The position numbers were made by a program, and so were the translations under genes. The notes below the pieces were generated by a model. The model searched no databases, was not told the DNA's origin, and was given only the letters and a program-made list of their open reading frames with translations. A DNA stretch of 64,000 nucleotides from Eubacterium sp. (GTDB lineage Bacteria > Bacillota > Clostridia > Oscillospirales > Acutalibacteraceae), in assembly GCA_017463985.1 (NCBI GenBank), contig JAFUEH010000004.1, positions 1 through 64,000 of the forward strand, written 5' to 3'. Shown in pieces: positions 27,201-44,485 of this stretch. The stretch's first letter is position 1; each line of letters opens with the position of its first letter.

Positions 27201-30200
27201 GCAGTGCAAGGATCTGTGCAGCAGACATCTGCTCGATGATCGCTGCAAGCTGCGGATCAAGGCTGTCGATGATACCGCTGAGCAGGTCAGAATTCAGTAC
27301 CGTGTCAACAACGTAGCCGTATACCAGCAGCAGTACCTGTGCCGGGTTCTTCGCCGTAGCCAGCTTCTGCCAGTTGATCGCCGGCAACTGAATACCGCCG
27401 AGGCTGTCACCGATCAGGTCGTTAACAATATTCACGAGGATGTCCTTGCCGGCAAAGCCTAAGGAAGCGCCCTTGAGCTTTACAAGGATGTCAACACCCT
27501 CTTGCGGATCTGCCATGTCAGCGTCATCCAGCTTGATGTTGTAGTACGGAACGCCTGCCGCGATCTGGTCGCCGTACAGGGCTCTGATGGCCAGCTTCTT
27601 GACAAGGTAGCCAAGCGTCGGGCAAGCCAGCTTATCTCTGATAATGTTATCAGTCAGGCCAAGAATATGGTTGTCAACCGGCATCAGCACGCTGCCGAGA
27701 ATGCCCATGATGGAGTTGTCATCCAGTACACCGGCAAGTCCCTTCACAAGGTTCAGGATGAAGCTGAACGGTGCGTCGTACAGCGGCGCAAGAATACCGC
27801 CGAGCGGACGGATGAAGCCGTTAACAAGCTGAGAACCAGGTGTTGCCTTGTTGAAGTCAGCAGCAGCCATTACCGGAACCTCGGAGCCTACGGCGTTCGC
27901 CAGTGAGGAGAAGATCGGGTTGATAATGTTGCTGTACCAGTTCTGCTTGTGCTCGCTGTCAACATAAGTCTTGGTCAGTACTGCGCCGAGAACGCCGGCC
28001 ACACCGCTGAGTGATTCACCGAGTGCGTCATAGAACGCGTCCTTGTCGCCGTCCTTGAAACCGAACTTCAGGTAGTCGATGGTGTTGTACTGCTTCTTTG
28101 CGTAGTAAGCAGCTGTTACCTTTACCTTGAAGCTGTTCCAGTTGAGGTAATCCTTTTCAGCCAGGATTTCCTTCGTCTTAGCATACTTGTCGCTGTCGAG
28201 TCTGATACCTACCGCATCCGGAGAAACGATACCGTACAGTGCGTCAGCGATCAGCATATTCGGGTCTCTGTTAACCAGGAAGCCGCTGTCCTCGTTGTAG
28301 AACAGGTAGTCAATGATGTTCTCCAGCAGAGAATAGGTCTGGATTACCAGGTTAGACAGGTTAGCAGAGGTGTAAACTCTCTTGTAATCTACGTCGCCGC
28401 CCTTGGTCGGATAGTTACCGATCACGTTCCACTTGTTCGGGTTAGCGGTGGATTCGCCGCATACGTAGTAGAGGTAATCGTTGATCAGAACGAGAATGTC
28501 GTTGGTGTTCTTCTGGCCAAGGTAAGCCGAAGCCAGGGAAACAGCACCGGACAGCAGGTTCTCTGTGGAATCCAGCGTGAAGCCGTTCAGCTCTGCGTTA
28601 GAAAGCACGGAGCTCAGTACGGTGTCGAGCACGTCAACCAGCTTCTGCGCAGCCTTTTCATTGCTGGCGGTCAGCAGCTCGCTGTAGTTCGTGCCGGCAG
28701 CGGACTTGTTCTTGCTGGAAGCAGCCAAATACGGGCCGACGGAAGCGAACGCGTTGTCAAGGTCGTAATCCGCCTGGACAGCCTCGTTATTTTCAATGAT
28801 TCCCTTAATGAACGGGATCAGACCGCGGATCTCACCGTCCTTGAAGTACATCAGGTTGTTGATGAGATAGAAACCGGAGGTGATGGAGAAACCGGAGAAG
28901 TTTGTCTTGCTCTCGGCGTCGATTGTGTTCGCCTCGGTTCTTCTGGTCAGCGTGAAGGAAGCGGCGTCGCTTCTCTTAAGCTGGAACAGACCGTTCAGTG
29001 CGTCAGTGATGATAGAATCGTCATCCAGTCCGCCAAGCGCGTCCAGCAGACCCTGCAGCAGCGGAATATTGTAAGAAATGTCGTTATTCTCGTCATCGAT
29101 CATGTCGTTCAGGAAGTCGAGCAGGCTGTTTACCCAGTTGCCGATGAGGAGGTCAACCACGTGGGTCAGGATATCGGCTGAGGTAGCGCCGGACTTCGGG
29201 ATTGCAAAATCCTTGAACGCCTTGATGTGCATATTGGCAAGCGCTTCGTAAGATTCTTCGCCAAGGGTGAAGGTCTTCGTCTCGATCTTGCCGTCATACA
29301 GGAAGGTCCAGTCAGAGTCAACATTGTACTTTTCGTTGAAGTTCTGACCGATTCTGTTGATCAGGTAAGGCAGGGAAACCGGCAGGTCGTTCAGCGCCGT
29401 CTGTGCCGGCAGCATGCCCTCAGCACCAACGCCGTACTTAACATGGTCGCTCAGATCGTTCTTTGCGTCCAGTACCGCGTCCTTCAGGAATACTAAGATT
29501 TCCTGAAGCGGCTCGCTGAGCAGTGCGGTCAGCTGTGCCTGCTGCTGCTTGATCGCCGCAATTTCCTCGTCGGTAGCATCGTCGCCTTCGCTGTAGATCA
29601 GACCGGCGATCAGACCGGCGATGTCTTCTGCACCGGAAAGCTGTGCAATGATACCGTCAACAATATAAATGTTGGTGAACTTCGGTACCTGGCTGTTGTA
29701 TTCCTTGTAAACCTGTTCGCCGTTTTCGTCAAGGACAGGATTGCCTTCGCCGTCCACGATCGCCACAGGTCCGTAAAATTCGTAGCCGATATAGTCCAGT
29801 GCCGCCGCCTTGTCGCCGGTTAACCAGCTGAGGATGGCCGGCAGGGACTTGTTCAGGTCAAGGTGCAGACAGCCGAGGCCGATGTCGCTGCCCTGTGCCT
29901 GAGAAAAACCGCCCAGCAGTAAGCCGAACACGATACCTTCGATTTCGTTCTGATACGAATCGTCATGGATCAGGGTCGGCAGCAGAATTTCGTCAATGAC
30001 AACGGTCAGTACCGGTAACAGCTCAAACAGTGTTTCGGACGGATCGTCGTACAGGCGCTGCCACAGATCGGTCAGCGAGCTCTTCAGGTCGATCGGTGTC
30101 TCCAGCAGGCTCAGTACCACGCCTTGGATCGTCGGATCGTCCAGGAGCGGCATGAACTTGTTAATCAGGGAGTTCACGAGCGGCACGGTGTACTCGGTCG

Positions 30201-32046
30201 GAACGGCATAATCGGCGTAGAAGTAGATCTTCTCCGGCTCGTCCGGTTCGTCCGGCTCGTCCGGCTCGTCCGGTTCCTCGGGCGCTGCGTCAGGATTTAC
30301 AACATAAGTATTGTAAACCTCAAATACGTTCAGTGCTGAGGTCGCGGCGCTGTTCATGTAATAATCCTTGTCGCCGTTGTAAGAGGGCTTGATCTTGTTG
30401 TCAACGATCCACTGTGAAGGCGCCATTGTCTGGAGTCTTCTCAGACCGCCGTTGACCATTGCGTGATCCGTAAATACAGATGCCTCGCTGTTATTCAGCT
30501 CTACAGTCAGCGCATCGCTAAAGCTGCCGGCAGCCGCCAGGTCAGCCACAAAGCTGTCCACGGCAGAAGCGTCCAGGTCAAGCATCGCGTTGATGTAGCT
30601 CGCAGCCGCCGCGTTCAGGTTCGCTTCTGCATAAGCAGCCAAGCTTGCGCCGTCTGCGATCGTGCCGGCCACCGCCGCGTTATAGATCGCCTCTAACTGT
30701 GCGTCTGTGATCGCAAAATCAGCCTCGTCTGCGCCAAGCAGCTTTGCCAGACCGGTCGTGATTTCCTTGTAGTACGGAGAAGTGACATCACGCATTAAGT
30801 CGTAATTGTACTTTTCGGAACGGGCCATACCGCTTCCGGCGTACCAAGCGCTGTCGTCGTAGGATTCCCAGTCGTTCAGGAACAGGGCGCCAAAGAGCAT
30901 TGCGCGGTAATATTCGTCAAAGGAGGTGTGGTCATGATCGTCCATCATCCACAGCTCAAGGTAGTAGTCCCAATACATCATGGAGCTGAGCATGCCGTTA
31001 TCGTACATGAAATCCCAGTTGTAGAAGGTTTTGAAGCTCGCCTCGAGCGCGTCTGCCGTTGTACCGGTGGCGTCCGGATAAAGGCTGGTGTCAACCGTTG
31101 CGCCGGCCTCGTCCATCAGGTTGAAGTACAGGTCATAATACTCTGCCAGCAGCTCAAAGGGGTTGATAGCATAGTACAGCAGCTCCGCCATATTGGCCGG
31201 TGCAGCAATGCCCTTATCCTTCAGGACGTTCGTGTAGTACTCGATAGCCAGCTCGCCGTCGGTGCCTTCCAGGTCGCTGAGCGGCGTGTCCTTCAGCAGC
31301 TGACCGTTAACGGTCGCGTTGCTGATGTCCTCAAGGGTGTAGGTGTAGAGGCCCTGATTCAGCATATCCGTAGTTGCTTCTTCCCACAGACCCTGCAGAT
31401 ACGCCTTCATCTTCATGACCTCGCCGGCCTCCGGCTCCGGCTCCTCTTCCTTTTCAGGAACGCCGAGGGAGTCGAACAGCGCGTCGAGCGCTGCCAGCGT
31501 ATCGGTGCACCATGCGCCAAGGTCGCCGTCTGCGTCCTTGTTCTCATAGCAGATACCGTACAGCTGGTAGAAGGTGAGCAGGTCGCTCTCGTCGTCCTCC
31601 GGCGTGTCGAGCGGCGTGTACCACTTGTCGTACAAGTCCTTTTGGGCTTCATAGTCGCTGTACTTAAAGCCTAAGAACTTTTCCTTTGTCCAGGAAACCT
31701 CTATCTGTGCAATGTAGAGGTTAAGGTCGCCGAGACCGCCGAGAAGGCCTAAAAGCATCGGCGAAGCGCCCTGTACCACATCGCTCAGGGTGGTAGCCTG
31801 GGTTACAGGGTTCACAATATTGTTCTCCTGTAACAGGTCCTTGATCGCGTCGATCTGCAGCAGCGCAGCCAGCAGGCTGTCGATCGACTGGAATGCCGCT
31901 TCGGCATCCGTTTTGTCGTTCCAGTAGTGCAGGTTCTGGTCCGTCTGGTTGCCGTCAGCTGCGTAGGCGGTCAGACCGAGTGAACTACCGGTGATGATCA
32001 TTACTAAGGCTAAAAACAGGCTTAGTAATTTTTTGCTCGTTCTCAT
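24232..32046 (-). CDS. Giant secreted repeat protein of unknown function
   Basis: A 2,604-residue protein I do not recognise by name. It has an N-terminal signal peptide (KKLLSLFLALVMIITGSS..AYA, cleavage near residue 29), an acidic Pro-Glu-Asp linker near residues 587-606, and then mostly hydrophobic-heptad helical sequence. The C-terminal 1,300 residues hold about three long repeats of 450-525 residues. Each has a KYG.TY..A block (near 1282, 1732, 2257), an ILEAF-type stretch, an I.PL/GGLL...PF...ILPN segment and an LP.I.W..LA block. No catalytic motif, dockerin, LPXTG or SLH is seen. The ATG at 32046 is set by AAGGAGAG; an ATG six bases upstream is too close. Divergent from the dockerin gene cluster, so possibly a partner. 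Confidence 0.75.
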   Translation of the reverse strand: MRTSKKLLSLFLALVMIITGSSLGLTAYAADGNQTDQNLHYWNDKTDAEAAFQSIDSLLAALLQIDAIKDLLQENNIVNPVTQATTLSDVVQGASPMLLGLLGGLGDLNLYIAQIEVSWTKEKFLGFKYSDYEAQKDLYDKWYTPLDTPEDDESDLLTFYQLYGICYENKDADGDLGAWCTDTLAALDALFDSLGVPEKEEEPEPEAGEVMKMKAYLQGLWEEATTDMLNQGLYTYTLEDISNATVNGQLLKDTPLSDLEGTDGELAIEYYTNVLKDKGIAAPANMAELLYYAINPFELLAEYYDLYFNLMDEAGATVDTSLYPDATGTTADALEASFKTFYNWDFMYDNGMLSSMMYWDYYLELWMMDDHDHTSFDEYYRAMLFGALFLNDWESYDDSAWYAGSGMARSEKYNYDLMRDVTSPYYKEITTGLAKLLGADEADFAITDAQLEAIYNAAVAGTIADGASLAAYAEANLNAAAASYINAMLDLDASAVDSFVADLAAAGSFSDALTVELNNSEASVFTDHAMVNGGLRRLQTMAPSQWIVDNKIKPSYNGDKDYYMNSAATSALNVFEVYNTYVVNPDAAPEEPDEPDEPDEPDEPEKIYFYADYAVPTEYTVPLVNSLINKFMPLLDDPTIQGVVLSLLETPIDLKSSLTDLWQRLYDDPSETLFELLPVLTVVIDEILLPTLIHDDSYQNEIEGIVFGLLLGGFSQAQGSDIGLGCLHLDLNKSLPAILSWLTGDKAAALDYIGYEFYGPVAIVDGEGNPVLDENGEQVYKEYNSQVPKFTNIYIVDGIIAQLSGAEDIAGLIAGLIYSEGDDATDEEIAAIKQQQAQLTALLSEPLQEILVFLKDAVLDAKNDLSDHVKYGVGAEGMLPAQTALNDLPVSLPYLINRIGQNFNEKYNVDSDWTFLYDGKIETKTFTLGEESYEALANMHIKAFKDFAIPKSGATSADILTHVVDLLIGNWVNSLLDFLNDMIDDENNDISYNIPLLQGLLDALGGLDDDSIITDALNGLFQLKRSDAASFTLTRRTEANTIDAESKTNFSGFSITSGFYLINNLMYFKDGEIRGLIPFIKGIIENNEAVQADYDLDNAFASVGPYLAASSKNKSAAGTNYSELLTASNEKAAQKLVDVLDTVLSSVLSNAELNGFTLDSTENLLSGAVSLASAYLGQKNTNDILVLINDYLYYVCGESTANPNKWNVIGNYPTKGGDVDYKRVYTSANLSNLVIQTYSLLENIIDYLFYNEDSGFLVNRDPNMLIADALYGIVSPDAVGIRLDSDKYAKTKEILAEKDYLNWNSFKVKVTAAYYAKKQYNTIDYLKFGFKDGDKDAFYDALGESLSGVAGVLGAVLTKTYVDSEHKQNWYSNIINPIFSSLANAVGSEVPVMAAADFNKATPGSQLVNGFIRPLGGILAPLYDAPFSFILNLVKGLAGVLDDNSIMGILGSVLMPVDNHILGLTDNIIRDKLACPTLGYLVKKLAIRALYGDQIAAGVPYYNIKLDDADMADPQEGVDILVKLKGASLGFAGKDILVNIVNDLIGDSLGGIQLPAINWQKLATAKNPAQVLLLVYGYVVDTVLNSDLLSGIIDSLDPQLAAIIEQMSAAQILALLSEVISAVNSPVEVYWTFKEYAGKLTNTFTYPKGINDYKANKAVGQLDNIVKNVFPLLNGFGVTDIEGLDALVRDNLYTNEIITTIAKALYGALTGNDTVVTVLGALSLDVSPAGVAAYLTDKSYGPTYSSAASTLKSAKSWDKVTSVNWGFKNGSASAQDGFIKGLAAALRPLNNVLGVLLAENKLDITKIDIRGLLNSLAVKGSTELGEGENGATLTYELKNGTFLVTLQSHNIQFNDNRTRKSILEIDVDAVAKDIEDLLAGVDIGFGTNGYESAIIPILEAFLCDDIKTYKEYKADYAKAKDNLIINILKPIGGLLNKLVDKPFDTLTAILPNVAYFIDNGGVEQAVGNLLAPITAKDGLLGVLAKNGLDIDELIYMITKKDLGTIVSDLLADKLGIEADIQLDLSNLAASNIHEIVIPLVINLLKDKLGITLPEFTWADIAKHGVVKTVASKALNDEGAYTTLQVQANQGEVLVAVLRYVADVLIKNAQVLKEMITGLDAIKNNATLKSIVESIFDQIAQADKDDIVRAIFYLLCGEPTDSFFDYRNFKIGDYEFSFGDLDEDFCRQLAPMLDGLIGGLLEGGLTKLVEDNLYKDDLVAKIATGLYGAVEGVKVGDNTLTNILAMTDIDFTTGNVAALLTNEKYGRTYADAAGTIRSAGSWKNVKAENLHFGVTDRDSFLRALTAVLRPLFGVLDVILNDASLNLFDLVSIPGSDGYTSTIVPLLEALGVYNIKTQYQYREDCFKQYDSLLLDILNPLWDKVEDILAAPLEVVANILPNLALFFGNDGLIQLVENLLTPVSALLDALRPIVDVNSVLKAAGLDVPKLLKDKVGLSVSKFDLYDLSGTLKPLVGADNVVGTINSVLKVIKISGQPLGIELPEIDWLKLASCGEYQMNATSQVATYGGRIAVEADEDEALITVLRFLVETINYKDNYDAVSSLVAGLLGGASETVAGVVDQVLGLLQGDTDEVIQSLVELLQALAG

Positions 32047-32104
32047 AATCATCTCTCCTTTTCTTATGATTTGACGAAGCAGCTTATAGAGACGTTGTCG
32101 CTCC

Positions 32105-32299: not shown

Positions 32300-32733
32300 G
32301 AATTGACAAAAATAATTAATAATTTATTAACTTTTATCATTCTATGAATATCCGCGCAGCGCGGCGCTATCACTTTCAAAGCTGTTGCACAGCGGCGCTG
32401 CCGGGGGAGCGATCCGCCGCAGTCACCCACAGCGGAAAGCTTCCCTAATAAATGGCCATAAAACGGCATCACGGTCGAAAAACATAGTGTAAAGCGGATT
32501 GTCTTTACGCCGACGTTTCACCTGTAAAGGCGTTCTCCATTACACGACAAAACGCAGAAAATGTCAACAAAAACTCCACAAAAATATAAACAAGGGGTAA
32601 AAAGTTTGTGAATATTCTGTTAACATTTCAGATTTATAATACCTTATAGTTTGCCATTTGTCAACAGTTAATTCACAATTTGTTAACATTTTTGGACAAA
32701 ATTCCATTATCGTCTTGATTTATAAAAAATCAA
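32300..32733. other. Divergent intergenic region, non-coding
   Basis: Spacer between the two divergent secreted-protein genes. It contains an AT-rich stretch (32300-32345), a GC-rich palindromic stretch around 32350-32365, an inverted AAAG...CTTTAC/GTAAAG motif near 32480-32535 and another AT-rich zone (32575-32730) with several TTGTTAACATT-type words. The AT-rich parts may bind regulators. No gene is supported. Confidence 0.4.
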
Positions 32734-32762
32734 TTGACTTTGCGCACAAAATATGATTTAAT
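32734..32762 (+). promoter_or_regulatory. Probable promoter of the dockerin gene cluster
   Basis: TTGACT (32734-32739), 17-bp spacer, TTTAAT (32757-32762). It gives a leader of about 150 bases before GTG 32919. Confidence 0.5.
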
Positions 32763-32918
32763 AAGAGTGCGTAAAATGCGTTTTAGTATAAGTATTTATA
32801 TGCACGCACGGGTGTACTACCCTTCAGTCTGCTGCAGCAGTGCTGCAGCGTGGTCAGAGATTGCGACAGCGGGCAATAACGCATTTATTCGTAAAATTAA
32901 TATGGAGGAAATTAGAAA

Positions 32919-35900
32919 GTGGAAACAAAAAAATCTAAAGTATTCACAAAAAGACTTATTGCGCTTCTCCTTTCGGTCATGATGCTTTTCACCTGCTTCA
33001 GCGGCGTGTTAACTGCGTACGCTAAGGCCGGCGATAGCCGCTGGGATACGACCATCGCATCTCAGAAAAACTGGGTCGACTGGACAGCTGCATTAAGCGA
33101 TCAGGCTTGTGAAGCACTCCTCGACCGTTTAGATCAGTTCCTGATGAGCGGCGCTGTCGACCTTTCCGGCGACCCGGGCAAAAGCAAGACCGGCGCTGTC
33201 AACGAAGACGGCTCTATCGCTACCATCAGCTACAAGATCAAGATCGGTGCGGATGATCCGGGACAGCTTTATATCTATATTAGCTCCCTTACCGGCGGTA
33301 CCAAGACGGCTACCGGTAACCTGAACTCCATCGACGGTATCCTGCAGTTCCTGTATGAGCTGGATAAAAACGGCATCTGGAACTATAAGGTACTCGGTAT
33401 TAAGGCTATCAACACGATCGCGGGCTCTACGATCTACAACGCCTTTAACGGCAAGTTCGGTCCGATCACCGGCCTTTCCAGCAGCACCAGCACTTCTAAC
33501 AAGATCGGTGCTTCTAAGGCTACCAGATATTTCCGTAAGCTGAATGATGCGAGAACGATCATCAATGCAGTGCTGAACTTCCTGAACAGCATTCTTTACA
33601 ACTCAACCACGAGCTACAACCTGCTCTATCAGGTACTGAGCGGTAGCCTTGACGTTGGTATGCTCTCCAACTTCGTTGACGCGCTCAAGGATGACGACAG
33701 TGCAATCGGCGGCGCTCTGAAGGGCCTTGTCGGTGCTCCGGACGGCAAATGGGCGGTCAAGGGTGAAAAAGCGCTTTATAACGGTCTTGCTTACTTCTTG
33801 GTTAACAAGACGGATTGGTTCAAGGATGACACTGTTACATTCAGCAGCGGTCAGCCGACCAAGTACAACGGTGCTACCTGGGTTTACGATGACGTTCTGA
33901 TGGATAAGCTGTCCACACAGCTCCTGCAGAACATCAACATCCAGATCACCTATCCTGAGATGGTTAAGGTTGATGACAAGTGGCAACACGACAATTCCAG
34001 ACTGCGTTATAAGAACATCCTCGCTTACATCGCTGAGCACGAGGGTGCAACAGTAGCGACTGCTTCTGCAGCTCTTGGCTACGACAGCAAGCTGGAATAC
34101 ACAGAGGACGGTAACGTTTATCTGTTCCGTTATGACGGCAATGTACTGAGCATCGCTAAGACCGATACGCTGTATGCGTTCGCGATGAGAGCGATCAAGC
34201 TCGCATGGAAGACGGCTCTGAAGCCGACAGTTAACCTTCTTCAGGTGAACTACAGCGGCCATGAGCAGGACGGCAACGGCACGAACTTCGATAACGTATT
34301 CTTTACCTGGTACGCTACCGAAAGAGACGGCGCTGACGGTACATTTGATGCGGCGGCTGCTTATACGACAGATGTCATTAATGCATTTGCTGAAGCGAAG
34401 TACGAAGCTTACGGCGCTGCTGACGCTGCTGAGTTCCTTGAGAACGTAAAGAACACCTATAATTATGATAGGTATGCAAAGAACGAGTATTACAACTGGA
34501 GAGACCTCGACGTTACCACGCTGTGGAACCAGGTTCGTTACAGCCCGCTGGCTAACGCACTTGGCGTACAGTCCGGTCCTCTGAACCTGTACTTCCTGCA
34601 GACCGGTTGTGAGAACCTCGAAGCTTTCATGGATGCTGACGCAACCTACACGAAGTATGCTTCTATTCCTGAGGCGCTGAACGACGCACTGGTTGCTGCT
34701 GCGAAGGATTTACTTCCGAACGCTGCTACCATCGGTATGCAGACTGACGCTGAGGGTACGTTCCAGCACTTCGATGCTCCGAGCTTTGCAACAACGACTG
34801 CCTGGAGCGCAACGACGCTGCTCAACAATGTCCGCAAGGCATTAGAGTATGCTGCTAACATGACGGACGCTAACCTGGTTAACCCGTTCTATGCAGCACA
34901 CGGCATTGCCGGTTACACGGCTGACGCTAATAACATCACTTCTGATGAGCTTCTTGAGGAAGCACTTGTTCCGTTTGGCTGCGCTGCGCTGAAGCAGTGG
35001 GATCTCACCGCCGTTATCCATGACAGCGATTGGGATAAGGTAACAGACCTTGAGTCTGCTGCTGTTATTGCGCTGAACGAGTATCTTGGTTACATCTTCC
35101 CTGAAAGAGATTACACTTATCTGTGGGAAGACTTCCTTGAGGTTTCTGATGTTCTCGGCCAGAATTCCAAGGGTGAGGACGTTACCTACAAGCTTCTGAA
35201 GGAAAGCAAGGACGGTAAAGATCTTTACACCACGGCGATTCTGCCGATGGCTCGTGACGCAGCGGCTTACGTATGCGTAGCTGCCGGCGTTCCGGTTGCG
35301 AAGAAGGATACCACTCCTTGGGATCCGTACACCGATTGGGCTAAGACAGAAACTACCAACACTGCGTTTGATCTGATCAACGCAACGGCTGTTTACTTCC
35401 TGGGCGACACGACCCTGACCTTTGACCCGAACGGAACGAAGGCTCCGGCAAAGGGCATCGGTACGGTTCTTGGCCTGTGCAGCTCCAGCGGCGTATCTTC
35501 TATCACGATCGCTAAGGGTCTGTGGGCTAACCTTGACGCTATTGTTAACAGAGTTCTTCCTGTTGCCGGCGAACTGCAGAAGCCTTACGGCACGAACAGC
35601 TACCTTGGCAACGGCAAGTTCAGCAGCCAGAAGTTCGTTGAAGGCGAAATCATCGACGACGTTCGCGACTTCAACCTGACCAGCCTTGTTGAGGGCGTTT
35701 ACAGCATCTGCTCTGCTGCTCCGATCAAGAGCGACGGCGTTGTTGTTACGGTTTATGATAAGGTTCTCAGACCGACGCTCAACAGCCTGCTGGGTACCCA
35801 TCCGGCTGCCTCCAGTCAGGAACTGATTGCGAACATCACGAACGCTAACCGTTTCGACACCTTCCTGAAGTCTGCTAACATCATTAGCCTGAACAGCAAC

Positions 35901-38594
35901 AGAGGTGTTATCGGTACATTACTGAACAACGTTGTACAGCTCCTTACGGACGCTGATTCTTATCCGAGATATCACAACGTTATTTCCTTCGCGCTGAGCT
36001 CACTCGGTGTTCCGAGACAGTTCAGACAGCATGACATCGGCGGCGTAGAGATCGGTATTGACTCCGTCATCAGCGGTACCTCCGCAAGTGCTCAGTACTC
36101 TGTAACGAACGCTTCTTACGGTCTCAATAAGTTCTATCACGACGCATCCGGTACGCAGAAGGAAGCTTCCAGATATTGGGTGAAGATTACCAGCCTTGAC
36201 CTGTACCAGGGTACATCAAAGGTTGCTACGCTGCAGTCCAATGTCTCCCTGTCACCTGAAGCAACTAACTATTACACCCTGAGCAGAACCCTTACTGCAA
36301 ACACGCTTTACAGAATCGTTGCTACTTATGATGTATATTATGTTGACAGCGTAACAGGTACGACGCAGCCGGGTACGGCTATCTACACCGGCCTGAAGGA
36401 TTCTACTGCCTTCATCACAACTTCTACCACCGTTTCTAAGAAGAGCCAGATGGATATGACCTTCGACGGCAGCGGTTACAAAGAGGTTGACAGTGCTGAG
36501 ACCGGTTCCTTTGCTACCGCAACGGGCAGCAATATTACCATCAAGGCTTCTACGCTGTATACTGTGAACGCAGCTGACGCAAAGAGCGACTACTTCGTAA
36601 GACTGACGAACGGCGCTTCTTCTGCTGTTACGGTCGCAGGTATGTACATGACGCCTGCTGCTGGCTTTACTTACAAGCTGAGAACTACCGGTAACGCCGG
36701 TACAGCTCTTACCGCAGCTAACAGCACCAACTACATCTTCGTTGACATCGACGAGGACGGTAACATTTATAGCACTGACGGCACTGTTGTCGGTAACGTA
36801 TTAACCTCTGCTTGGATTTACGGTTATAATAAGTCCACCAATGATGAGGGCAAGGAAGTATTTGATAACGCTATTGCGCTGAAGACAAATGCTACTCTTC
36901 CGAGCAACGTTGCTGCCGGTACGCCGTTCAGAAGCGTAACGATGGAAAGCGCTAGTGGCTCCATCGACGCTGGCGACTATAAGAATGTTAAGATTGCTAC
37001 TAAGGGCACGACCAAGAACGGTCTTGCTACCGTACGCTTCACCTTCAAGGTTGGTACTACTTGGACGAACCTGGGCAGCGACGTAACCTTCGCAGCAATT
37101 GGTGATATGGATGCGCTGAAGGCTGCTGTTGCAGGTGCTCAGAACCTGATCAACACCGGCGAGCTTTCCGCTACCAACACTGCATTCGTGAACGCTGCTA
37201 CGGCTGCTTCCTTCAAGAACGCTTGGGCTAACAACGTTGCTTACTTTGCAAACGCTGACACCTACAGAGAAGCTCTTGAAGAGGCTATGGAATCCGCAGC
37301 TACAAGCCGCGAAACCATCACTGCTGACGTTAACGCTACGCGTGACGGTCTTGAGGAAGTTGACTACAAGGTTGCTTCCTTCAAGGCAATGGTTGCTGCC
37401 GGCCAGAAGGCTGAGGCACTCCGCACCGCTGAGCCGATCACTGTTGAAGGCACAGACGGTAACGAATATCCGGTATATGACGCGAAGGGCAGAGAGACCT
37501 ATACTTACACGACCACCGCTCCGCAGTGGCAGATCGACGAGTACACTCGCCAGTACAATAAGTATAAGAGCTATCTCATTCCTCGTGATCACGTTCTTAC
37601 CAGAGCTCAGAACGAAGTCATTCACGCAACATCACCTGTTGACAAGTATGACGAAGTTCAGGATGTTAAGAACGCGTATACCGCATTCACCGCTACTCCT
37701 GTAACCGCTGAGAGAACCTACGTTGTAACAGACGAGAACGGCGTTCCGGTACTGAGCGGCGCAGTTGGTGACGAGTACAGAGCCACCAGCACGGAAAAGG
37801 GTGACGTATCTGAGTACAGATTCGCTTACACGACCAAGGACAACAACACGGCTGACAATGTGAAGGTCTACAAGATCACCACGACTGCAACCGATGTGAA
37901 GTTCGGTAAGGTTGTTGACGGCGAACTCAAGAACGAAGGCGACACTGTTTACACGCAGGAATCCTGGGATGCTTACATTGACGCTCTCGGTGAGGTTGTT
38001 ACCTCTATCAACAATAACGAAGAAATCTCCAAGACCTACACCGCAACTTCTCACCTTGTAATGGCTGAGAACGAGCTGGAGCCGGCCGAGGAGGAAGAAT
38101 CTTCCACAACGATTACTGTCAGCGGTAAGGTGCTGATTGCTTCCGACATCTCTGGTACAGCGACTGCTTATGGCCTTCGCGGCGTAGTCGTTTATGCAGT
38201 TGACGGTGAAGGCAATGTAATTGCACAGACCGTTTCTAATGCAGAAGGCGATAAAGCAACTTGGGGCGATTATACGCTCGAGGTTCCTGCCGGTACAACG
38301 CAGCTGTATGTTGGTAGCCCGGATAAGGATTCCATTGTTAACAGGGGCTTTACCATTGCTGGCGACGCTGACGTAACAGGCGCTGATGTTGCGGTTGTTA
38401 TGTGCGACTACAACGACGATGGTGTTATTAACTCCACGGATAAGGGTAGATTTAATGACTCGTTAAGAGGTGAATATAGCATTTATGCTGATTTCAACCT
38501 TGACGGTGTTGTTAACTCAACAGATAAGGGTAGATTTAACGACTTGCTTAGAACCGGTGATAAAGGCGTTTCATATACTGAATTATCTTTCTAA
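32919..38594 (+). CDS. Large secreted protein with C-terminal X-module and dockerin
   Basis: An 1,891-residue protein. Signal peptide at residues 1-36 (LIALLLSVMMLFTCFSG..AYA). A long, mainly helical N-terminal two-thirds has no recognised catalytic motif. Beta-rich segments (about 1040-1390) and a short helical segment (about 1397-1480) follow. The C-terminal module starts near 1728 (ITVSGKVLIASDISG). Dockerin calcium loops DYNDDGVINSTD (1830-1841) and DFNLDGVVNSTD (1858-1869) are each followed by KGRFND. Dockerins bind cohesins in cellulosome-like assemblies. GTG start behind TGGAGG. First of three co-directional secreted proteins. Codon choice favours GCT/GTT, unlike the housekeeping genes, which suggests high expression. 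Confidence 0.8.
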   Translation: METKKSKVFTKRLIALLLSVMMLFTCFSGVLTAYAKAGDSRWDTTIASQKNWVDWTAALSDQACEALLDRLDQFLMSGAVDLSGDPGKSKTGAVNEDGSIATISYKIKIGADDPGQLYIYISSLTGGTKTATGNLNSIDGILQFLYELDKNGIWNYKVLGIKAINTIAGSTIYNAFNGKFGPITGLSSSTSTSNKIGASKATRYFRKLNDARTIINAVLNFLNSILYNSTTSYNLLYQVLSGSLDVGMLSNFVDALKDDDSAIGGALKGLVGAPDGKWAVKGEKALYNGLAYFLVNKTDWFKDDTVTFSSGQPTKYNGATWVYDDVLMDKLSTQLLQNINIQITYPEMVKVDDKWQHDNSRLRYKNILAYIAEHEGATVATASAALGYDSKLEYTEDGNVYLFRYDGNVLSIAKTDTLYAFAMRAIKLAWKTALKPTVNLLQVNYSGHEQDGNGTNFDNVFFTWYATERDGADGTFDAAAAYTTDVINAFAEAKYEAYGAADAAEFLENVKNTYNYDRYAKNEYYNWRDLDVTTLWNQVRYSPLANALGVQSGPLNLYFLQTGCENLEAFMDADATYTKYASIPEALNDALVAAAKDLLPNAATIGMQTDAEGTFQHFDAPSFATTTAWSATTLLNNVRKALEYAANMTDANLVNPFYAAHGIAGYTADANNITSDELLEEALVPFGCAALKQWDLTAVIHDSDWDKVTDLESAAVIALNEYLGYIFPERDYTYLWEDFLEVSDVLGQNSKGEDVTYKLLKESKDGKDLYTTAILPMARDAAAYVCVAAGVPVAKKDTTPWDPYTDWAKTETTNTAFDLINATAVYFLGDTTLTFDPNGTKAPAKGIGTVLGLCSSSGVSSITIAKGLWANLDAIVNRVLPVAGELQKPYGTNSYLGNGKFSSQKFVEGEIIDDVRDFNLTSLVEGVYSICSAAPIKSDGVVVTVYDKVLRPTLNSLLGTHPAASSQELIANITNANRFDTFLKSANIISLNSNRGVIGTLLNNVVQLLTDADSYPRYHNVISFALSSLGVPRQFRQHDIGGVEIGIDSVISGTSASAQYSVTNASYGLNKFYHDASGTQKEASRYWVKITSLDLYQGTSKVATLQSNVSLSPEATNYYTLSRTLTANTLYRIVATYDVYYVDSVTGTTQPGTAIYTGLKDSTAFITTSTTVSKKSQMDMTFDGSGYKEVDSAETGSFATATGSNITIKASTLYTVNAADAKSDYFVRLTNGASSAVTVAGMYMTPAAGFTYKLRTTGNAGTALTAANSTNYIFVDIDEDGNIYSTDGTVVGNVLTSAWIYGYNKSTNDEGKEVFDNAIALKTNATLPSNVAAGTPFRSVTMESASGSIDAGDYKNVKIATKGTTKNGLATVRFTFKVGTTWTNLGSDVTFAAIGDMDALKAAVAGAQNLINTGELSATNTAFVNAATAASFKNAWANNVAYFANADTYREALEEAMESAATSRETITADVNATRDGLEEVDYKVASFKAMVAAGQKAEALRTAEPITVEGTDGNEYPVYDAKGRETYTYTTTAPQWQIDEYTRQYNKYKSYLIPRDHVLTRAQNEVIHATSPVDKYDEVQDVKNAYTAFTATPVTAERTYVVTDENGVPVLSGAVGDEYRATSTEKGDVSEYRFAYTTKDNNTADNVKVYKITTTATDVKFGKVVDGELKNEGDTVYTQESWDAYIDALGEVVTSINNNEEISKTYTATSHLVMAENELEPAEEEESSTTITVSGKVLIASDISGTATAYGLRGVVVYAVDGEGNVIAQTVSNAEGDKATWGDYTLEVPAGTTQLYVGSPDKDSIVNRGFTIAGDADVTGADVAVVMCDYNDDGVINSTDKGRFNDSLRGEYSIYADFNLDGVVNSTDKGRFNDLLRTGDKGVSYTELSF
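38398..38570 (+). repeat. Dockerin-coding direct repeat, copy 1
   Basis: About 170 bases coding the dockerin are nearly identical to 39798-39970, differing at only a handful of mostly synonymous positions. Confidence 0.85.
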
Positions 38595-38875
38595 TGAATA
38601 TTAATGATACGATTAAGTGTTAATTTTTAATGCTGGTTGTACTACATTAGTATTATAATCGGTATTGCCGTAAGCCCTCCCTCTCCGGAGGGAGGCAGGC
38701 GGCAAGCCGGCACTGCCGCAAGGCAGACTCCGATACATCCTGCGCTATACTGCAGATGTATTATCAGCTGAATGCATGTTTTTGTTGAGAGTTGCTCGTG
38801 CATCATGGTGGCAAGAAAAATGTGCATTGAGCGGGCGAAAGCCTGCAAAACAAGAATTTGAAAGGAGCTTTGCTT
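38595..38875. other. Intergenic spacer with hairpins
   Basis: It contains a GC-rich palindrome GCCCTCCCTC-TCCG-GAGGGAGGC (38674-38696) and a weaker GGCAAGCCGGCACTGCC-type structure. No T-run makes it a convincing terminator, so read-through to the next gene is possible. A Shine-Dalgarno AAAGGAG at 38861-38867 serves the next gene. Confidence 0.5.
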
Positions 38876-39997
38876 ATGCTCAAAAGCTTTAAAAAATTCT
38901 TTGTTGCCCTAATAATTGGAACTTTAATAGCAATCGCTGTTCCGTTGAACGTGCTCGCAGCTGAGGGAACGATCGATGAAACAGTCAGTCCTTATTTATA
39001 CTGTGTTTATTACAATTCTGACGGTGAACAGGTAGACGGTAATGGGCTCCCTTCCGGTGATTACAGGGTTGATGTGATGCTGGAAGGTATGGACTCTCTC
39101 TCTGTTTTTCAATATACCGCCGAATATGACCCAAGCACAGTTACATCGCTTTCAACCGAGGCGGTCATCGATACGATGCGCCTGGGCGGCATTAAGGATA
39201 CAGAAGCAGCTAACGGTAAGCGGCGCGTGGTGTTAGTGCTCGCCTCAGAGGGCGAGGATGGCACTGAGCTTGATCACCTCAGTCCCGTAACGCTCGCCAC
39301 GATGCAGGTAACGGTTGACTGCGACGCTTCTGCGATCGATTTTGCAGATTACTTCACGTTTGTGGAGGACCCTGACTTAACCTTTGCAGAGGCATATTAC
39401 CACGACGGTATCGAATATTCGTACGTTGTCGATACCAACGAAGCGACAGATTTTAACGTACCAACTATGAAAACCGATGTAACGCCTGCGTTCGCAGCCA
39501 GCACCATCACCGTCAGTGGCAAGGTGTTAATTGCTGTTGATGAAATTGGTACGGCCTCGAATTATGGCTTACGCGGTGTAAAAATTTATGCTTATGATAA
39601 TGATAATAACGTAATAGCTGAAACCGTATCGAACGCTGAGGGTGATAAATCCACTTGGGGTGATTATTCGCTCGAGGTTCCAGTTGATACAACGTCGTTT
39701 GAGGTAGGAGATCCTGTCAAGGGTAATGATACTATTGTTAACAGACGGTTTTCTATTTCAGGTGTTGCAGATGTTACTGATGCAAATGTAGCAGTTGTTA
39801 TGTGTGATTACAACGACGATGGTGTTATTAACTCGACGGATAAGGGTAGATTTAATGACACGTTAAGAGGTGAATATAGCATTTATGCTGATTTCAACCT
39901 TGACGGAGTTGTTAACCCAACAGATAAGGGTAGATTTAACGACTTGCTGAGAACTGGTGATAAAGGTATCAACTATGTACAATTGAGTTTTGATTGA
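38876..39997 (+). CDS. Secreted cohesin-like plus X-module-dockerin protein
   Basis: A 373-residue protein. Signal peptide at residues 1 to about 26 (FFVALIIGTLIAIAVP..VLA). Residues about 40-170 read like a cohesin-type beta-sandwich: GDYRVDVMLEGMDSLSVFQ, then the YDPSTVTSL hallmark and VTLATMQVTV. An X-like module follows (ITVSGKVLIAVDEIG, from about 213), then a dockerin with calcium loops at 311-322 and 339-350. A protein carrying both partner types can act as an adaptor or small scaffold. ATG 38876 is set by AAAGGAG; an upstream TTG lies inside that site. The cohesin call is by pattern only and needs a profile search. Confidence 0.7.
   Translation: MLKSFKKFFVALIIGTLIAIAVPLNVLAAEGTIDETVSPYLYCVYYNSDGEQVDGNGLPSGDYRVDVMLEGMDSLSVFQYTAEYDPSTVTSLSTEAVIDTMRLGGIKDTEAANGKRRVVLVLASEGEDGTELDHLSPVTLATMQVTVDCDASAIDFADYFTFVEDPDLTFAEAYYHDGIEYSYVVDTNEATDFNVPTMKTDVTPAFAASTITVSGKVLIAVDEIGTASNYGLRGVKIYAYDNDNNVIAETVSNAEGDKSTWGDYSLEVPVDTTSFEVGDPVKGNDTIVNRRFSISGVADVTDANVAVVMCDYNDDGVINSTDKGRFNDTLRGEYSIYADFNLDGVVNPTDKGRFNDLLRTGDKGINYVQLSFD
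39798..39970 (+). repeat. Dockerin-coding direct repeat, copy 2
   Basis: Near-identical partner of 38398-38570, at the same position relative to the end of its gene. It points to recent duplication or gene conversion. Confidence 0.85.
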
Positions 39998-40028
39998 TTA
40001 TCATTGTTATTTATTGGAGGAAATTTTA

Positions 40029-43000
40029 ATGGCTAAATCTTTTAAAAGAGCAATTGCCTGTCTCCTTGCTGTTCTAATGGTTGCCTTCTCTATGCCTTTC
40101 ACGGCATTAGCAGCCCCTGGCGACTATGAGCCGGACATCGAAATGAACTTCTATCCTGTTTATCTTGGCCAGGATTATGGTGACTACACTGCGATAACCG
40201 GTACCAAGAACGGAGGCACGCCGTCATATCATGTAATGGGTCTTGACGATGTTGCTTTTAATTACAATCCGACATCCGGTACCCTTACAATGCCGGTAAC
40301 AAAGGCACAGGCTTGGCTCGATGAATACTTTGAAGGTTCTGCTGAGGGAACTGTTTTAGAAGACGGCGACTGGACGCTTGGCGTTGGCGATTATTTTGCA
40401 GCTGTTGTTGTATGTAAGAACATCTCAACCTTCCGAGTTATTGCTGGGCTTATTAGCTATTCTGATAATATTCAACCGGCAGTCATTTACGACAATGTAT
40501 CCGGTACCGGCAGAAACGCTTACCATAGAGTAACTTTTGACAAGAATGATTATCAGGGTGCAGCGACTGCTTCTTCTGCTGCCGTTGATGGCGTTTATTT
40601 AGGCGTTGATGCAATGGCTTATGGCGAAGAAGTAGATACTGAATCTAATGAATTTAAAGAAGACGGTTTGTATTTCTCAGCCGTTGGCGGTAATCCGTAT
40701 ACAGAGTGTGAAACTTATGCTTCGGCTGAAGACGCTCTTACAGATCCTAAAACCGGTGCGCTGGGTTACACCTTTGCTAATGAATGTATCATAGGTACTT
40801 TCCTGTTTGAAATCGTTGACGAAGGTCCAATTGTTTTTGCTGCTGGTGACCCCGATGGCGCAATTTATCCGGCAAATGGCGGCGGTTATTATATCGCAGA
40901 CCTTAATGACGGTGATGCTGTAGAGGATTATACCACACTTGCACCGAACTCAGATGATCCGAGTGTTCCTGGCTCTCAGAAGATGACTTTCTTCGCTGAG
41001 AAGGAAGAAGAGCCTGAAGAGACTTACTACACGGTAACCTACGTTGATGCTGACGGCGAAACCATCAGCACGGAAGAGGTTCTTGAAGGCGGCAGCCCGG
41101 CTTCTATCCCGGATCTTCCGACCAGCGAGGACGCTCACGTATCTTACGACTGGGATACTAATCCGAGCGGTGCTGTTATTAATGCAGCAACCACCTTTAC
41201 GATTGTGAAGTCCACAAGCGAGCATGAGTGGAGCGAATGGACTGAAACAACGGAAGCAGTTCCGGCTTCTTGCTTAGTAGACGGTAAGACTGCTATCGAG
41301 AGCAGAACCTGCTCTATCTGCGGTGAAGCTCAGACCCGTGGCGGCGAAGTTGTTCCTGCTTACGGTCACCATGACTACACTAAGGTTGTAACTGATCCGA
41401 CTTGTGACGATGCTGGTTACACCACCTACACCTGCGCAGAAGGCGATGACACTTATGTCGCTGATCCGGTTGACGCTCTTGGCCATGACTGGGGTGCATG
41501 GGAAGAGACTTCTGAAGCTATTCCGGCTACCTGTACTGCTACCGGTATGACCGCTGGCGAAAAGAGAGTCTGCAACCGTGACGCTTCTCATGTTGAGACT
41601 CGCGGCGGCGAAGAGATCCCTGTAGATCCTAATAATCACACGAACATTGTTACCGACGCTGCTGTAGAGCCTGATTGCTTGACCACCGGTCTGACCGAAG
41701 GTTCTCACTGCGAAGACTGCGGTACTGTTATCGTTCCTCAGGAAACCGTTGATGCTCTTGGTCACGAATACACCAGCGAGATCACGACTCCGGCTACCTG
41801 CACGGAAGACGGTGTTGAGACCTTCACCTGTATCCGCGGCGATGATTCCTACACCAAGGTTATCCCGGCTACCGGTCATGAGTGGAGCGAGTGGACTGTT
41901 GATGAAGAGGCTATTCCGGCTGGTTGTGAGACCGAAGGTAAGACCGCTGTTGAGAAGAGAGTCTGCGCTAACGATCCTTCTCACGTAGAGACCAGAGGCG
42001 GCGAGACAATCGAGGCTACTGGCCACGAATGGGGCGAGTGGACTGTTGTTGAGGAAGAAATTCCTGCTACTGAAACAACTGCTGGTAAGACGGCTGTTGA
42101 GCAGAGAGTCTGCGCTAACGACGCTTCTCACGTAGAGACCAGAGGCGGCGAAGTAATTCCGGCTCTTGATCATACGCACGTTCTGACTTATGTTGCAGAA
42201 GTTGCTCCTGAGTGCGAAGCTGACGGTCACATTGCTTACTTCGTATGCGATGATGGCGAAAATCCGTGCGGCAAGTTCTTTGCTGACGCTGAGGCTACTC
42301 AGGAACTGACTGCTGCTGAGCTTGTTATCCCGGCTACCGGTCACAAGTTCACCAACTATGTATCGAATAATGACGCTACCTGCCTTGAGGACGGCACGAA
42401 GACGGCTGTCTGCGACAATGGCTGCGGCACCACCGATACGATCGCTGACGAGGGCTCTGCTCTTGGTCACGAATACACCAGCGAGATCACGACTCCGGCT
42501 ACCTGCACGGAAGACGGTGTTGAGACCTTCACCTGTATCCGCGGCGATGATTCCTACACCAAGGTTATCCCGGCTACCGGTCATGACTGGAGCGAGTGGA
42601 CTGTTGCTGAAGAGGCTATTCCGGCTGGTTGCGAGACCGAAGGTAAGACGGCTGTTGAGCAGAGAGTCTGCGCTAACGACGCTTCTCACGTAGAGACCAG
42701 AGGCGGCGAGACGATCGAGGCTACTGGCCACGAATGGGGCGAATGGACTGTTACTAAGGAAGCTACCGAGTCTGAAGAAGGCGAAGAGACGAGAGTCTGC
42801 GCTAACGATCCTTCTCACGTAGAGACCAGAGCTATCCCTGTAAAGGGTCATACTCATACCCTTGTTAAGGTTGAGGCTGTTGATGCTACCTGCGCTGCTG
42901 CTGGTAACATTGAGTACTATGTATGCGCTGACAGCGAATATGCTTGCGGCAAGTACTTTGCTGACGCAGAAGGCACTCAGGAGCTGACTGCTGAAGACGT

Positions 43001-44195
43001 TATCGTTCCGATCGATGCTGACGCACACGCTTGGGGCGAATGGAATGAAATTGCTCCGGCTGTTGCTCCTACCAGAACTGAAGCTGGTAAGACTGCTACC
43101 GAGCAGAGAGTATGCGCTAACGACGCTTCTCACGTAGAGACCAGAGGCGGCGAAGAGATCCCGGCTATCGAAGGCGTTCTGATCACTGTTCCGGCTACCG
43201 AGTACGGTACTGTAACCCAGAGTGGCACCAACGCTTACGAGGATGGTATCCTTTATGCTTACGGTTCTAACTACAGACTGACTGCTGAAGCTAAGGAAGG
43301 CTACGAGTTCGTTGGTTGGACGATCAACGGCAGACTGCTGTCCGAGGCTCCGTCCTACAGCAACGTTGCTTACACAGACCTCGTAATCGATGCTGTATTT
43401 GCTCCTGTTGCTCAGGATAACTTCACCGTTACCTTCTTCGGTAAGTACGGCGATACCGTTGCGGTTGCTACCAGCGACGATCTCACTGTACCGGCTGCTC
43501 CTGCTCTGCCGGGTTACACCTTCACTGCTTGGACCATCGACGGCGCAGAAGTTACTGAGGACGATATCCTTGCTCTGACTGACTCCGCTCAGGTATGGGC
43601 GAAGTACGAGAAGAATACCGAAGGCGCTTACACCATCACTGCTGATGGTGCTGAGATCACTCTGCCGAACGGTATTGAAAACGGTGCAATTCCTTACGAT
43701 ACGAAGGCTACCGTCAAGTTTGAGGGTGCAACCTCTATCGTAGCTATCGACGCTAACGGTAATGAGTCCATCGTTGCCAGCGGCGACACTTACACCTTCT
43801 ATGTTGGTGGCGATATCACTCTGCAGGCAGCTTATGACGAGCTTGAAGAGGCTGTTGTTTCCATCATCAGCGCTGAGAAGGACGCTACCTCCGGTAAGTA
43901 CAGCATTGTTGCTAACAGAGCTGTTCCGGAAGGCTGGACCGTTAAGGACCGTGGCTTCGTAGTAGGCCTGCAGGCAAACGTTTCTGCCGATAAGGAAGAA
44001 ATCGTTGCTAACCTTGACACTCCGGCTACTGGCGTAAAGGTATATCACGGTACTCCGACAGCTTCCGAGCAGTTCTCCTATCTGTGCAAGATCGGTGCTG
44101 GCAAGACCATCAGAGTCTATGCATTCATCACCATCCAGAAGGGTTCTGAGACGAAGGTTGTTATCTCTGACTACACGGATGTAACTGGCGCATAA
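40029..44195 (+). CDS. Secreted Cys/Trp-repeat protein with possible cohesin-like N-terminus
   Basis: A 1,388-residue protein. Signal peptide at 1 to about 27 (ACLLAVLMVAFSMPFTALA). Residues about 30-290 contain GDYFAAVVVCKNISTFRVIAG and GTFLFEI strands that recall cohesins. From about 395 to 1040 there are many units of the form GH(E/D)WxEWT..C...G....RVC..D.SHVETR, each with paired cysteines that could form disulfides or bind metal. Residues about 1055-1210 hold InlB-B/Listeria-Bacteroides-like repeats (GYEFVGWTINGR, PGYTFTAWTIDG). The C-terminus is beta-rich. There is no dockerin or sorting signal. ATG 40029 follows GGAGG; its gene starts 31 bases after the upstream stop, so the two are co-transcribed. 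Confidence 0.75.
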   Translation: MAKSFKRAIACLLAVLMVAFSMPFTALAAPGDYEPDIEMNFYPVYLGQDYGDYTAITGTKNGGTPSYHVMGLDDVAFNYNPTSGTLTMPVTKAQAWLDEYFEGSAEGTVLEDGDWTLGVGDYFAAVVVCKNISTFRVIAGLISYSDNIQPAVIYDNVSGTGRNAYHRVTFDKNDYQGAATASSAAVDGVYLGVDAMAYGEEVDTESNEFKEDGLYFSAVGGNPYTECETYASAEDALTDPKTGALGYTFANECIIGTFLFEIVDEGPIVFAAGDPDGAIYPANGGGYYIADLNDGDAVEDYTTLAPNSDDPSVPGSQKMTFFAEKEEEPEETYYTVTYVDADGETISTEEVLEGGSPASIPDLPTSEDAHVSYDWDTNPSGAVINAATTFTIVKSTSEHEWSEWTETTEAVPASCLVDGKTAIESRTCSICGEAQTRGGEVVPAYGHHDYTKVVTDPTCDDAGYTTYTCAEGDDTYVADPVDALGHDWGAWEETSEAIPATCTATGMTAGEKRVCNRDASHVETRGGEEIPVDPNNHTNIVTDAAVEPDCLTTGLTEGSHCEDCGTVIVPQETVDALGHEYTSEITTPATCTEDGVETFTCIRGDDSYTKVIPATGHEWSEWTVDEEAIPAGCETEGKTAVEKRVCANDPSHVETRGGETIEATGHEWGEWTVVEEEIPATETTAGKTAVEQRVCANDASHVETRGGEVIPALDHTHVLTYVAEVAPECEADGHIAYFVCDDGENPCGKFFADAEATQELTAAELVIPATGHKFTNYVSNNDATCLEDGTKTAVCDNGCGTTDTIADEGSALGHEYTSEITTPATCTEDGVETFTCIRGDDSYTKVIPATGHDWSEWTVAEEAIPAGCETEGKTAVEQRVCANDASHVETRGGETIEATGHEWGEWTVTKEATESEEGEETRVCANDPSHVETRAIPVKGHTHTLVKVEAVDATCAAAGNIEYYVCADSEYACGKYFADAEGTQELTAEDVIVPIDADAHAWGEWNEIAPAVAPTRTEAGKTATEQRVCANDASHVETRGGEEIPAIEGVLITVPATEYGTVTQSGTNAYEDGILYAYGSNYRLTAEAKEGYEFVGWTINGRLLSEAPSYSNVAYTDLVIDAVFAPVAQDNFTVTFFGKYGDTVAVATSDDLTVPAAPALPGYTFTAWTIDGAEVTEDDILALTDSAQVWAKYEKNTEGAYTITADGAEITLPNGIENGAIPYDTKATVKFEGATSIVAIDANGNESIVASGDTYTFYVGGDITLQAAYDELEEAVVSIISAEKDATSGKYSIVANRAVPEGWTVKDRGFVVGLQANVSADKEEIVANLDTPATGVKVYHGTPTASEQFSYLCKIGAGKTIRVYAFITIQKGSETKVVISDYTDVTGA
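41754..42048 (+). repeat. Long direct repeat copy 1 inside the Cys/Trp-repeat gene
   Basis: About 295 bases are nearly identical to 42459-42753 (offset 705 bases, 235 codons), in frame, with few substitutions. Confidence 0.85.
42459..42753 (+). repeat. Long direct repeat copy 2 inside the Cys/Trp-repeat gene
   Basis: Partner of 41754-42048. In-frame recombination between the copies would delete or add exactly 235 residues. Confidence 0.85.
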
Positions 44196-44203
44196 TTAAT
44201 TAA

Positions 44204-44240
44204 ATCACGGCTCCTCTCCCTTCGGGGAGAGTGAGTTGAG
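44204..44240 (+). other. Palindrome between the repeat protein and the small peptide gene
   Basis: The CTCTCCC-TTCG-GGGAGAG hairpin sits just after the stop of the repeat protein. With no T-run it is a possible mRNA processing or stability element, or a copy of a dispersed palindromic repeat. Confidence 0.4.
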
Positions 44241-44260
44241 AATAACAGGAGGTATTTGTT

Positions 44261-44380
44261 ATGAAGGAACTTTATACAAAGCCCGAATTAGAGCTTGACG
44301 AGTTTAAGCTTGTTGACGTTATGACCGCATCTTCTGACGGATCCGGCATGGACGGCACTGATAGTGGCGACGAGTGGTAA
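44261..44380 (+). CDS. 39-residue acidic peptide, possible RiPP-type precursor
   Basis: A small gene with a strong AGGAGGT Shine-Dalgarno (44247-44253), an ATG at 44261 and a terminator 28 bases after the stop. The product starts MKELYTKPELELDEFKLVDV and continues into a Ser/Gly/Asp-rich tail (DGSGMDGTDSGDEW). The N-terminal half looks like a leader of the KPELE..EF..DV type seen in short putative peptides of Clostridia, and the C-terminal half looks like a modifiable core. No maturation enzyme is adjacent; PqqD and nucleotidyltransferase genes lie 14 kb downstream. It is real by its signals; function is unknown. Confidence 0.65.
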   Translation: MKELYTKPELELDEFKLVDVMTASSDGSGMDGTDSGDEW

Positions 44381-44407
44381 ACACCACTTTACTTCATAAA
44401 CCAACGG

Positions 44408-44437
44408 GAGGCGCGGAGCAATCCGCGCCTCTTTTTT
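44408..44437 (+). terminator. Intrinsic terminator after the small peptide gene
   Basis: A 10-bp stem GAGGCGCGGA / TCCGCGCCTC with a four-base loop, followed by six T residues. Confidence 0.92.
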
Positions 44438-44450
44438 CTGTTTACTCGCA

Positions 44451-44485
44451 CAAAAACAGCCTCCCTTACATTAAGGGAGGCTGTT
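44451..44485 (-). terminator. Intrinsic terminator of the LCP gene
   Basis: A 14-bp perfect stem AACAGCCTCCCTTA / TAAGGGAGGCTGTT with a three-base loop; on the minus strand it is followed by TTT. It lies just past the stop at 44497. Confidence 0.88.

Follow-up and report, generated by a model that had tools for sequence, protein, structure and literature searches.

The stretch of DNA analysed here (64,000 nucleotides of contig JAFUEH010000004.1 from a Eubacterium sp., hereafter the window; source genome of 2.58 Mb in 41 contigs) encodes three consecutive proteins, B, C, and D, that form a conserved set of large and apparently non-catalytic proteins, in which D is predicted to bind, by means of a cohesin domain, the X-module-dockerins of B and C through a species-specific recognition tag, a reading that we consider probable. 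All three genes lie on the forward strand, as do the domains described below. Gene B (32919..38594) encodes 1891 amino acids (aa), with a body devoid of Pfam domains and a C-terminal X-module-dockerin (38103..38591); gene C (38876..39997) encodes a monovalent cohesin-X-dockerin protein of 373 aa; and gene D (40029..44195) encodes 1388 aa with an N-terminal cohesin domain, Cys/Trp repeats, and an InlB-type repeat (Flg_new_2, a divergent InlB B-repeat, at 43182..43406; Pfam score of 33.3 bits for a cut-off of 23.6). The most likely starts are ATG 38876 for C and 40029 for D, the mechanical open reading frames opening further upstream at TTG. The three frames are found at the coordinates given in a first-pass annotation of the window, and their hydrophobic, signal-peptide-like N-termini (judged by eye) agree with its description of three consecutive secreted proteins. 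Its suggestion of a structural or adhesive set is likewise supported by the domain content of B, C, and D, in which, as it had stated, no catalytic domain is detected by a Pfam scan at E ≤ 1; the same scan found none in the upstream gene A. An NCBIfam search with B and C returned nothing useful.

The order B-C-D is kept in 16 related loci. Among 80 genomes of the genus, mostly incomplete assemblies, a profile of C finds some match in 67 and a C protein, defined as a match over both cohesin and X-dockerin or a match running into a contig end, in 44. An X-dockerin of B lies directly upstream of C in 43 of these 44 genomes and D lies directly downstream, also in 43, the exception in each case being a contig end. 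For about 27 of the 44 loci, coverage of B was limited to the 3' part, and its length there is that of the open frame. The D cohesin domain is present in 44 of the 80 genomes, with C and D together in 43, C only in one, D only in one, and neither in 35. Across the order, for which 295 genomes were sampled and at most six candidates per genome scored, 23 genomes gave matches; these are full length only in two, both of the same genus, and are confined to the X-dockerin part in the others. This conserved gene order, together with the matches of C and D profiles to known structures, led us to reject the possibility that the feature is not real.

Judged from their sequences, the X-dockerins of B and C are type II. 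In each of them an X-module is followed by two EF-hand loop-helix repeats, which is the architecture of type II X-dockerins, and a PDB search with a profile of C built from 17 species retrieves X-dockerins of type II, with an E value of 4.5e-14. The calcium loops reported previously are present letter for letter (DYNDDGVINSTD and DFNLDGVVNSTD in B, 38406..38525; DYNDDGVINSTD and DFNLDGVVNPTD in C, 39806..39925), with their calcium-ligand positions present. The presence of X-module-dockerins on B and C is thereby upheld by the PDB matches of the C profile, the Pfam Dockerin_1 model (PF00404) scoring 18.4 and 18.3 bits in the window, under its cut-off of 22.9. The X-module-dockerin of C (39503..39982, model residues 210-369) is type II-like and shares 78% identity with that of B. 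When 17 loci are compared, B and C dockerins of the same genome have an identity of 0.75 and those of different genomes 0.26, the best match of the C dockerin being the B dockerin of its own genome in all 17; for the X-modules the corresponding values are 0.58 and 0.29, with the own match best in 10 of 17.

The dockerins bear a recognition tag that is largely constant within genomes and variable between species. The source genome encodes four X-dockerins of the B/C kind, two of them at contig C12 in addition to those of B and C, all tagged NST or NPT: NST in both halves of B, NST and NPT in those of C. All four half-sites of B and C, located by a loop finder blind to the tag positions, could be scored in 39 of the 44 genomes, the five left out of the tag agreement table lying at contig ends (G098 and G100) or having one degenerate dockerin half in either protein (G004, G012, and G068). 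Over the four half-sites, agreement at positions 9, 10, 11, 13, 14, and 17 is 0.91, 0.81, 0.86, 0.83, 0.89, and 0.74 within genomes versus 0.19, 0.13, 0.09, 0.27, 0.12, and 0.11 between genomes; position 12 of the EF-loop is always Asp. At positions 9-11, the 39 genomes (39 species) display 37 different majority tags, the four half-sites being identical in 18 genomes and at least three of them in 23. Identity between halves on the recognition side reaches 0.77, as compared with 0.18 when partners are shuffled (maximum of 0.29 in 5000), a test made on eight positions fixed beforehand, whereas the six tag positions of the distance tests below were picked after the agreement table. The specificity determinants described for the dockerins treated in PMC5748583 are positions 10, 11, 17, 18, and 22; turnover is evident here for 10, 11, and 17, and position 18 is half-matched within genomes (0.49). 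Equal dockerin halves are presented in PMC8063739 as a hallmark of dual-mode binding and, since both halves of each dockerin bear the same tag, the dockerins of B and C would bind, in a calcium-dependent manner, in either of two orientations. The second half of the B dockerin is degenerate or shortened in G004, G012, and G068, where C keeps two loops; the dual-mode symmetry is therefore lost in these genomes.

Sameness of half-sites might also arise by copying at the DNA level. In an extreme form of this explanation, the dockerins would be calcium-stabilised tails without a cohesin partner and gene conversion alone would equalise their half-sites. It can point to the four-fold degenerate sites of matched residues, which are equal at frequencies between 0.44, for the two halves of C, and 0.63, for those of B, the chance value being 0.34, with high synonymous identity in G033, G032, and G026; because this pooled identity exceeds chance, tags have sometimes been copied between half-sites. 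Conversion, however, would be expected to level whole half-sites, and within one protein positions 2, 4, 15, and 19 agree at only 0.04, 0.18, 0.23, and 0.01 while positions 9, 10, 11, and 14 agree at 0.85-0.90. Copying alone would not produce this pattern. Moreover, 12 of 35 genomes have the four-fold sites of the halves at or below 0.40. In several genomes, among them G022 and G028, protein sequence is shared between B and C with four-fold sites at chance; the two dockerins of G028 have 45 of 60 residues in common, yet only 7 of their 23 four-fold sites agree, for a chance value of 0.30. The cohesin of D also changes with the tag, which the C cohesin and the D repeats hardly do. We thus deem it very improbable that the dockerins are partnerless tails, and conclude that both selection and copying shape the sameness of tags within genomes.

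The N-terminal domains of C and D, for which a cohesin identity had been proposed from the letters, both find support, in each case from a predicted fold and from sequence. The AlphaFold model of the C domain (38975..39490, model residues 34-205) adopts a nine-stranded jelly-roll cohesin fold, with type I and other cohesins as its best single-domain structural matches. In 60 genomes searched, the Pfam Cohesin model (PF00963) matches 7 of 30 C orthologues at E ≤ 0.1, four of which exceed its cut-off of 24.1 bits (31.0, 30.3, 24.7, and 24.3 bits); the C of the window itself has no PF00963 match, and the C profile found no cohesin in the PDB. For the D domain (40119..40997, model residues 31-323, with insertions), AlphaFold also predicts a cohesin fold, and the 15 PDB matches of its profile at E ≤ 10 are all cellulosomal cohesins, 13 of them from entries titled type II (best E 3.6e-5 over ~40-50 residues), which supports its assignment as a type II-like cohesin. 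PF00963 places no D of the window or of the 60 genomes above its cut-off, with one weak match of 15.9 bits in G005. A search of the source genome with the D-domain profile retrieved D alone, and a search for further copies of the D C-terminal domain retrieved D itself only. Four genomes (G001, G006, G061, and G091) encode a second D-type cohesin copy elsewhere, possibly a second receptor. No match to PF00963, and hence no multi-cohesin scaffoldin, was seen in the source genome, although divergent cohesins such as that of C escape this model. Tandem PF00963 cohesins above the cut-off occur at separate loci in other genomes (G061:C15, G024:C22, G001:C1, G025:C19, and G007:C21), so that scaffoldins of the ordinary multi-cohesin type may exist as well in part of the genus.

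The D cohesin is the likely receptor of the tag as far as can be judged from sequences, because four lines of evidence point the same way, without any of them being proof: the match of types (type II X-dockerin and type II cohesin), the order of the genes, their co-occurrence, and their co-variation with the tag. Co-variation was assessed by partial correlations of distances given LepA distance. In 37 genomes, compared by tag-only distances (G004, G012, G068, G074, G084, G098, and G100 were left out of the 44 because of incomplete halves, LepA, or D), tag distance correlates with the D cohesin at 0.30 and 0.31, with the C cohesin at 0.10 and 0.11, with the part of B upstream of its X-module at 0.10 and 0.11, and with the D repeats at 0.02 and -0.01. 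In a joint regression on these genomes, the D cohesin keeps 0.24 and 0.28 and the C cohesin falls to about zero. Among 80 close species pairs (LepA distance < 0.05), the B tag tracks the D cohesin at 0.78 and the C cohesin at 0.40. The difference between the partial correlations of D and C is positive in every leave-one-genome-out run. Simple linkage is a poor account of the covariation between tag and D, because all of C separates the B tag from D. The X-dockerins and the D cohesin may also be exchanged jointly, a case for which G089 and G075 can be set against G022, G070, and G077.

The cohesin and the tagged dockerin found in one C chain could alternatively build a head-to-tail polymer, the cohesin of each C binding the X-dockerin of the next, with B and other X-dockerin proteins as caps and D as base or bystander. 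A distance test over 17 genomes did favour the C cohesin, at 0.28 (p 0.015) and 0.37 (p 0.002) versus 0.13 and 0.24 for D. Nevertheless, we find such a polymer unlikely: the link is weak in the 37 genomes and gone in the joint regression, close pairs retain the C cohesin as the tag changes (G094/G080: C cohesin distance of 0.08, tag distance of 0.81), a residue scan for a face of the C cohesin covarying with the tag found none, X-module columns outscoring cohesin columns, and the X-dockerin is type II by sequence whereas the C cohesin most resembles type I and other cohesins.

If D captures the X-dockerins, C, which combines one cohesin with one dockerin and no catalytic domain and so has the architecture of a monovalent adaptor scaffoldin, would dock its X-dockerin into D and leave its own cohesin free for another dockerin class. 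A second, public dockerin-like tag, [IV]NAKD[YF], often on a single C-terminal loop, occurs in 53 of the 80 genus genomes (a reversed-pattern control matches in 8 of 80, once each). It appears six times in the source genome, on contigs C12, C24 (two), C27, C30, and C31; the carriers of five of these copies are two subtilases and one protein each of the CotH, GH30, and transglutaminase-like kinds. Because at least two such tags are commoner in genomes with C (34 of 44) than in those without it (13 of 36, kinship ignored), [IV]NAKD[YF] dockerins are candidate clients of the slower-evolving C cohesin, which might thus receive proteins as varied as subtilases, BspA-type and CotH proteins, and a GH30 enzyme.

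Two further X-dockerin proteins of the source genome bear the private tag itself and are encoded side by side on contig C12 (9290-17635, in stretch 1-20000). One has 1079 aa and a weak InlB-type match; the other, of 1677 aa, combines choline-binding-like repeats with a phosphodiester glycosidase domain (PF09992, NAGPA; E 3.8e-41). Both lie within what appears, on reading of the neighbouring sequences, to be an exopolysaccharide locus. The tagged cargo of this genome would accordingly consist of B, an exopolysaccharide-locus adhesin, and a phosphodiester glycosidase, displayed perhaps on the cell surface or in a polysaccharide layer, and the private tag would prevent the capture of such giant surface proteins between neighbouring species. 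The initial view that the system has no enzymes therefore stands for B, C, and D but not for this same-tag glycosidase. Elsewhere in the genus, the X-dockerin tag sits in G006 on a carbohydrate-binding protein of the Cthe_2159 type and in G011 on a CotH protein. No dockerin-bearing plant-cell-wall enzyme was seen among the four carriers of the B/C code in the source genome, the GH30 protein bearing a different tag. An ordinary cellulosome was rejected in view of the absence of catalytic domains in B, C, and D, the lack of any PF00963 match in the genome, and the identity of the tag carriers.

Several observations weigh against D as the private receptor. Besides the outcome of the 17-genome test and the partial homogenisation of the tags at the DNA level, the difference between the D and C correlations (0.20) is less than two standard errors (jackknife values of 0.12 and 0.11), and a nearest-neighbour test of D versus C is not significant (p 0.11). 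The X-modules track the tag almost as well as the D cohesin does (0.28 for C, 0.24 and 0.22 for B), which could be biology, the X-module contacting the cohesin in the type II complexes described in PMC5141474, or cassette exchange. The preference for D over C derives from distance correlations only, which are suggestive, and the residue scan that found no covarying face covered the C cohesin. The D model has a predicted local distance difference test (pLDDT) value of 71.7, the sequence match of the domain extends over ~45 residues, and a Pfam scan of D, the sole anchor check, turned up no anchor family, whether SLH, sortase-type, or another. As for the proposed clients of C, fewer than two NAKD tags are present in 10 of the 44 genomes with C, and the 13 genomes without C noted above have at least two.

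The moderate co-variation of D (0.30), common to the X-modules, and the capacity of divergent cohesins to escape PF00963 leave room for a different receptor that escaped recognition, either in the cell itself or in a partner organism, the D cohesin binding something else. We judge this improbable, since C and D are adjacent genes that co-occur with one exception each way, the D domain belongs to the family that binds type II X-dockerins, and its profile finds D alone in the source genome. The pairing implied by the first-pass annotation is refined to a probable type II interaction, with the D cohesin provisionally as best candidate over that of C. Capture by D may be part of a broader arrangement, which we advance tentatively and hold to be somewhat doubtful: a barcoded self-recognition at the surface of the genus, in which the private tag, of which B and C together hold four copies in each genome, would be read by the co-evolving D cohesin, so that giant structural proteins and a matrix enzyme would assemble solely on same-species cells or matrix. 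The tag would be swapped along with the X-module and the D cohesin as a matched set, the C cohesin acting as a constant public port for shared dockerins.

The unit probably includes gene A (24232..32052, reverse strand), absent like the private tag from the first-pass annotation, because an A homologue adjoins B in 15 of the 16 related loci, divergently upstream, the contig of the 16th ending before A. Its product (2606 aa, with a signal-peptide-like start and no Pfam match) contains copies of a ~500-residue module found by self-comparison of a shallow profile; a module common to A and B was sought, and only the signal-peptide region aligned. Homologues of A to D share ~25-40% identity in the 16 loci versus 50-95% for flanking genes. 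Downstream of D, a terminator-like hairpin of 12 pairs (44406..44433, forward strand) is the longest within 32000-44600, a region where the number of hairpin-type sites equals the shuffled expectation. It is followed by a LytR-CpsA-Psr family gene (PF03816; 44497-45804, reverse strand), a homologue of which lies beside D in 5 of the 16 related loci; proteins of this family link glycopolymers to the cell wall.

The closest known counterpart is the type II pair of Clostridium thermocellum (X-dockerin of CipA or CipB with ScaF/SdbA or ScaC2), which resembles ours, by profile and fold, in joining an X-module-dockerin to a type II cohesin. There, the X-dockerin sits on an enzyme-bearing scaffoldin, whereas here the carriers are of giant size, have no Pfam catalytic domain, and bear dockerins with symmetric halves; and type II recognition, described in PMC5141474 as promiscuous even with Acetivibrio, contrasts with a tag that differs in almost every species. 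C shares its single cohesin and single dockerin with the monovalent adaptor scaffoldins, which, in the systems covered in PMC4959524, admit a dockerin class unrecognised by the main scaffoldin; unlike those systems, the source genome has no multi-cohesin scaffoldin matched by PF00963. As in mesophilic clostridial cellulosomes, positions 10 and 11 of each repeat are predicted determinants here and the halves repeat the same residues; positions 10, 11, 17, 18, and 22 are preserved across the mesophilic species considered in PMC5748583, whereas 10, 11, and 17 turn over here. Amylosomes (Ruminococcus bromii; PMC9112005) and mucinolysomes (Limousia; PMC12997984) are likewise cohesin-dockerin systems of gut Clostridia acting on non-cellulose substrates. 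They attach many dockerin-bearing glycoside hydrolases, in contrast with B, C, and D, and Limousia has multi-cohesin scaffoldins where C and D have one cohesin each.

In contrast to the papers cited above, the recognition positions turn over here among species of one genus, yet match within each genome; a search of mostly open-access papers yielded no report of a hypervariable or co-evolving dockerin code. Some 37 natural and apparently orthogonal tags, each with a candidate receptor, offer a direct way to test the specificity code of cohesins and dockerins, and the collection would amount to a sizeable toolkit for protein assembly. For the organisms themselves, our results suggest that cohesin-dockerin systems could serve surface identity or matrix building instead of polysaccharide digestion, each species of the genus likely assembling its own surface proteins only.

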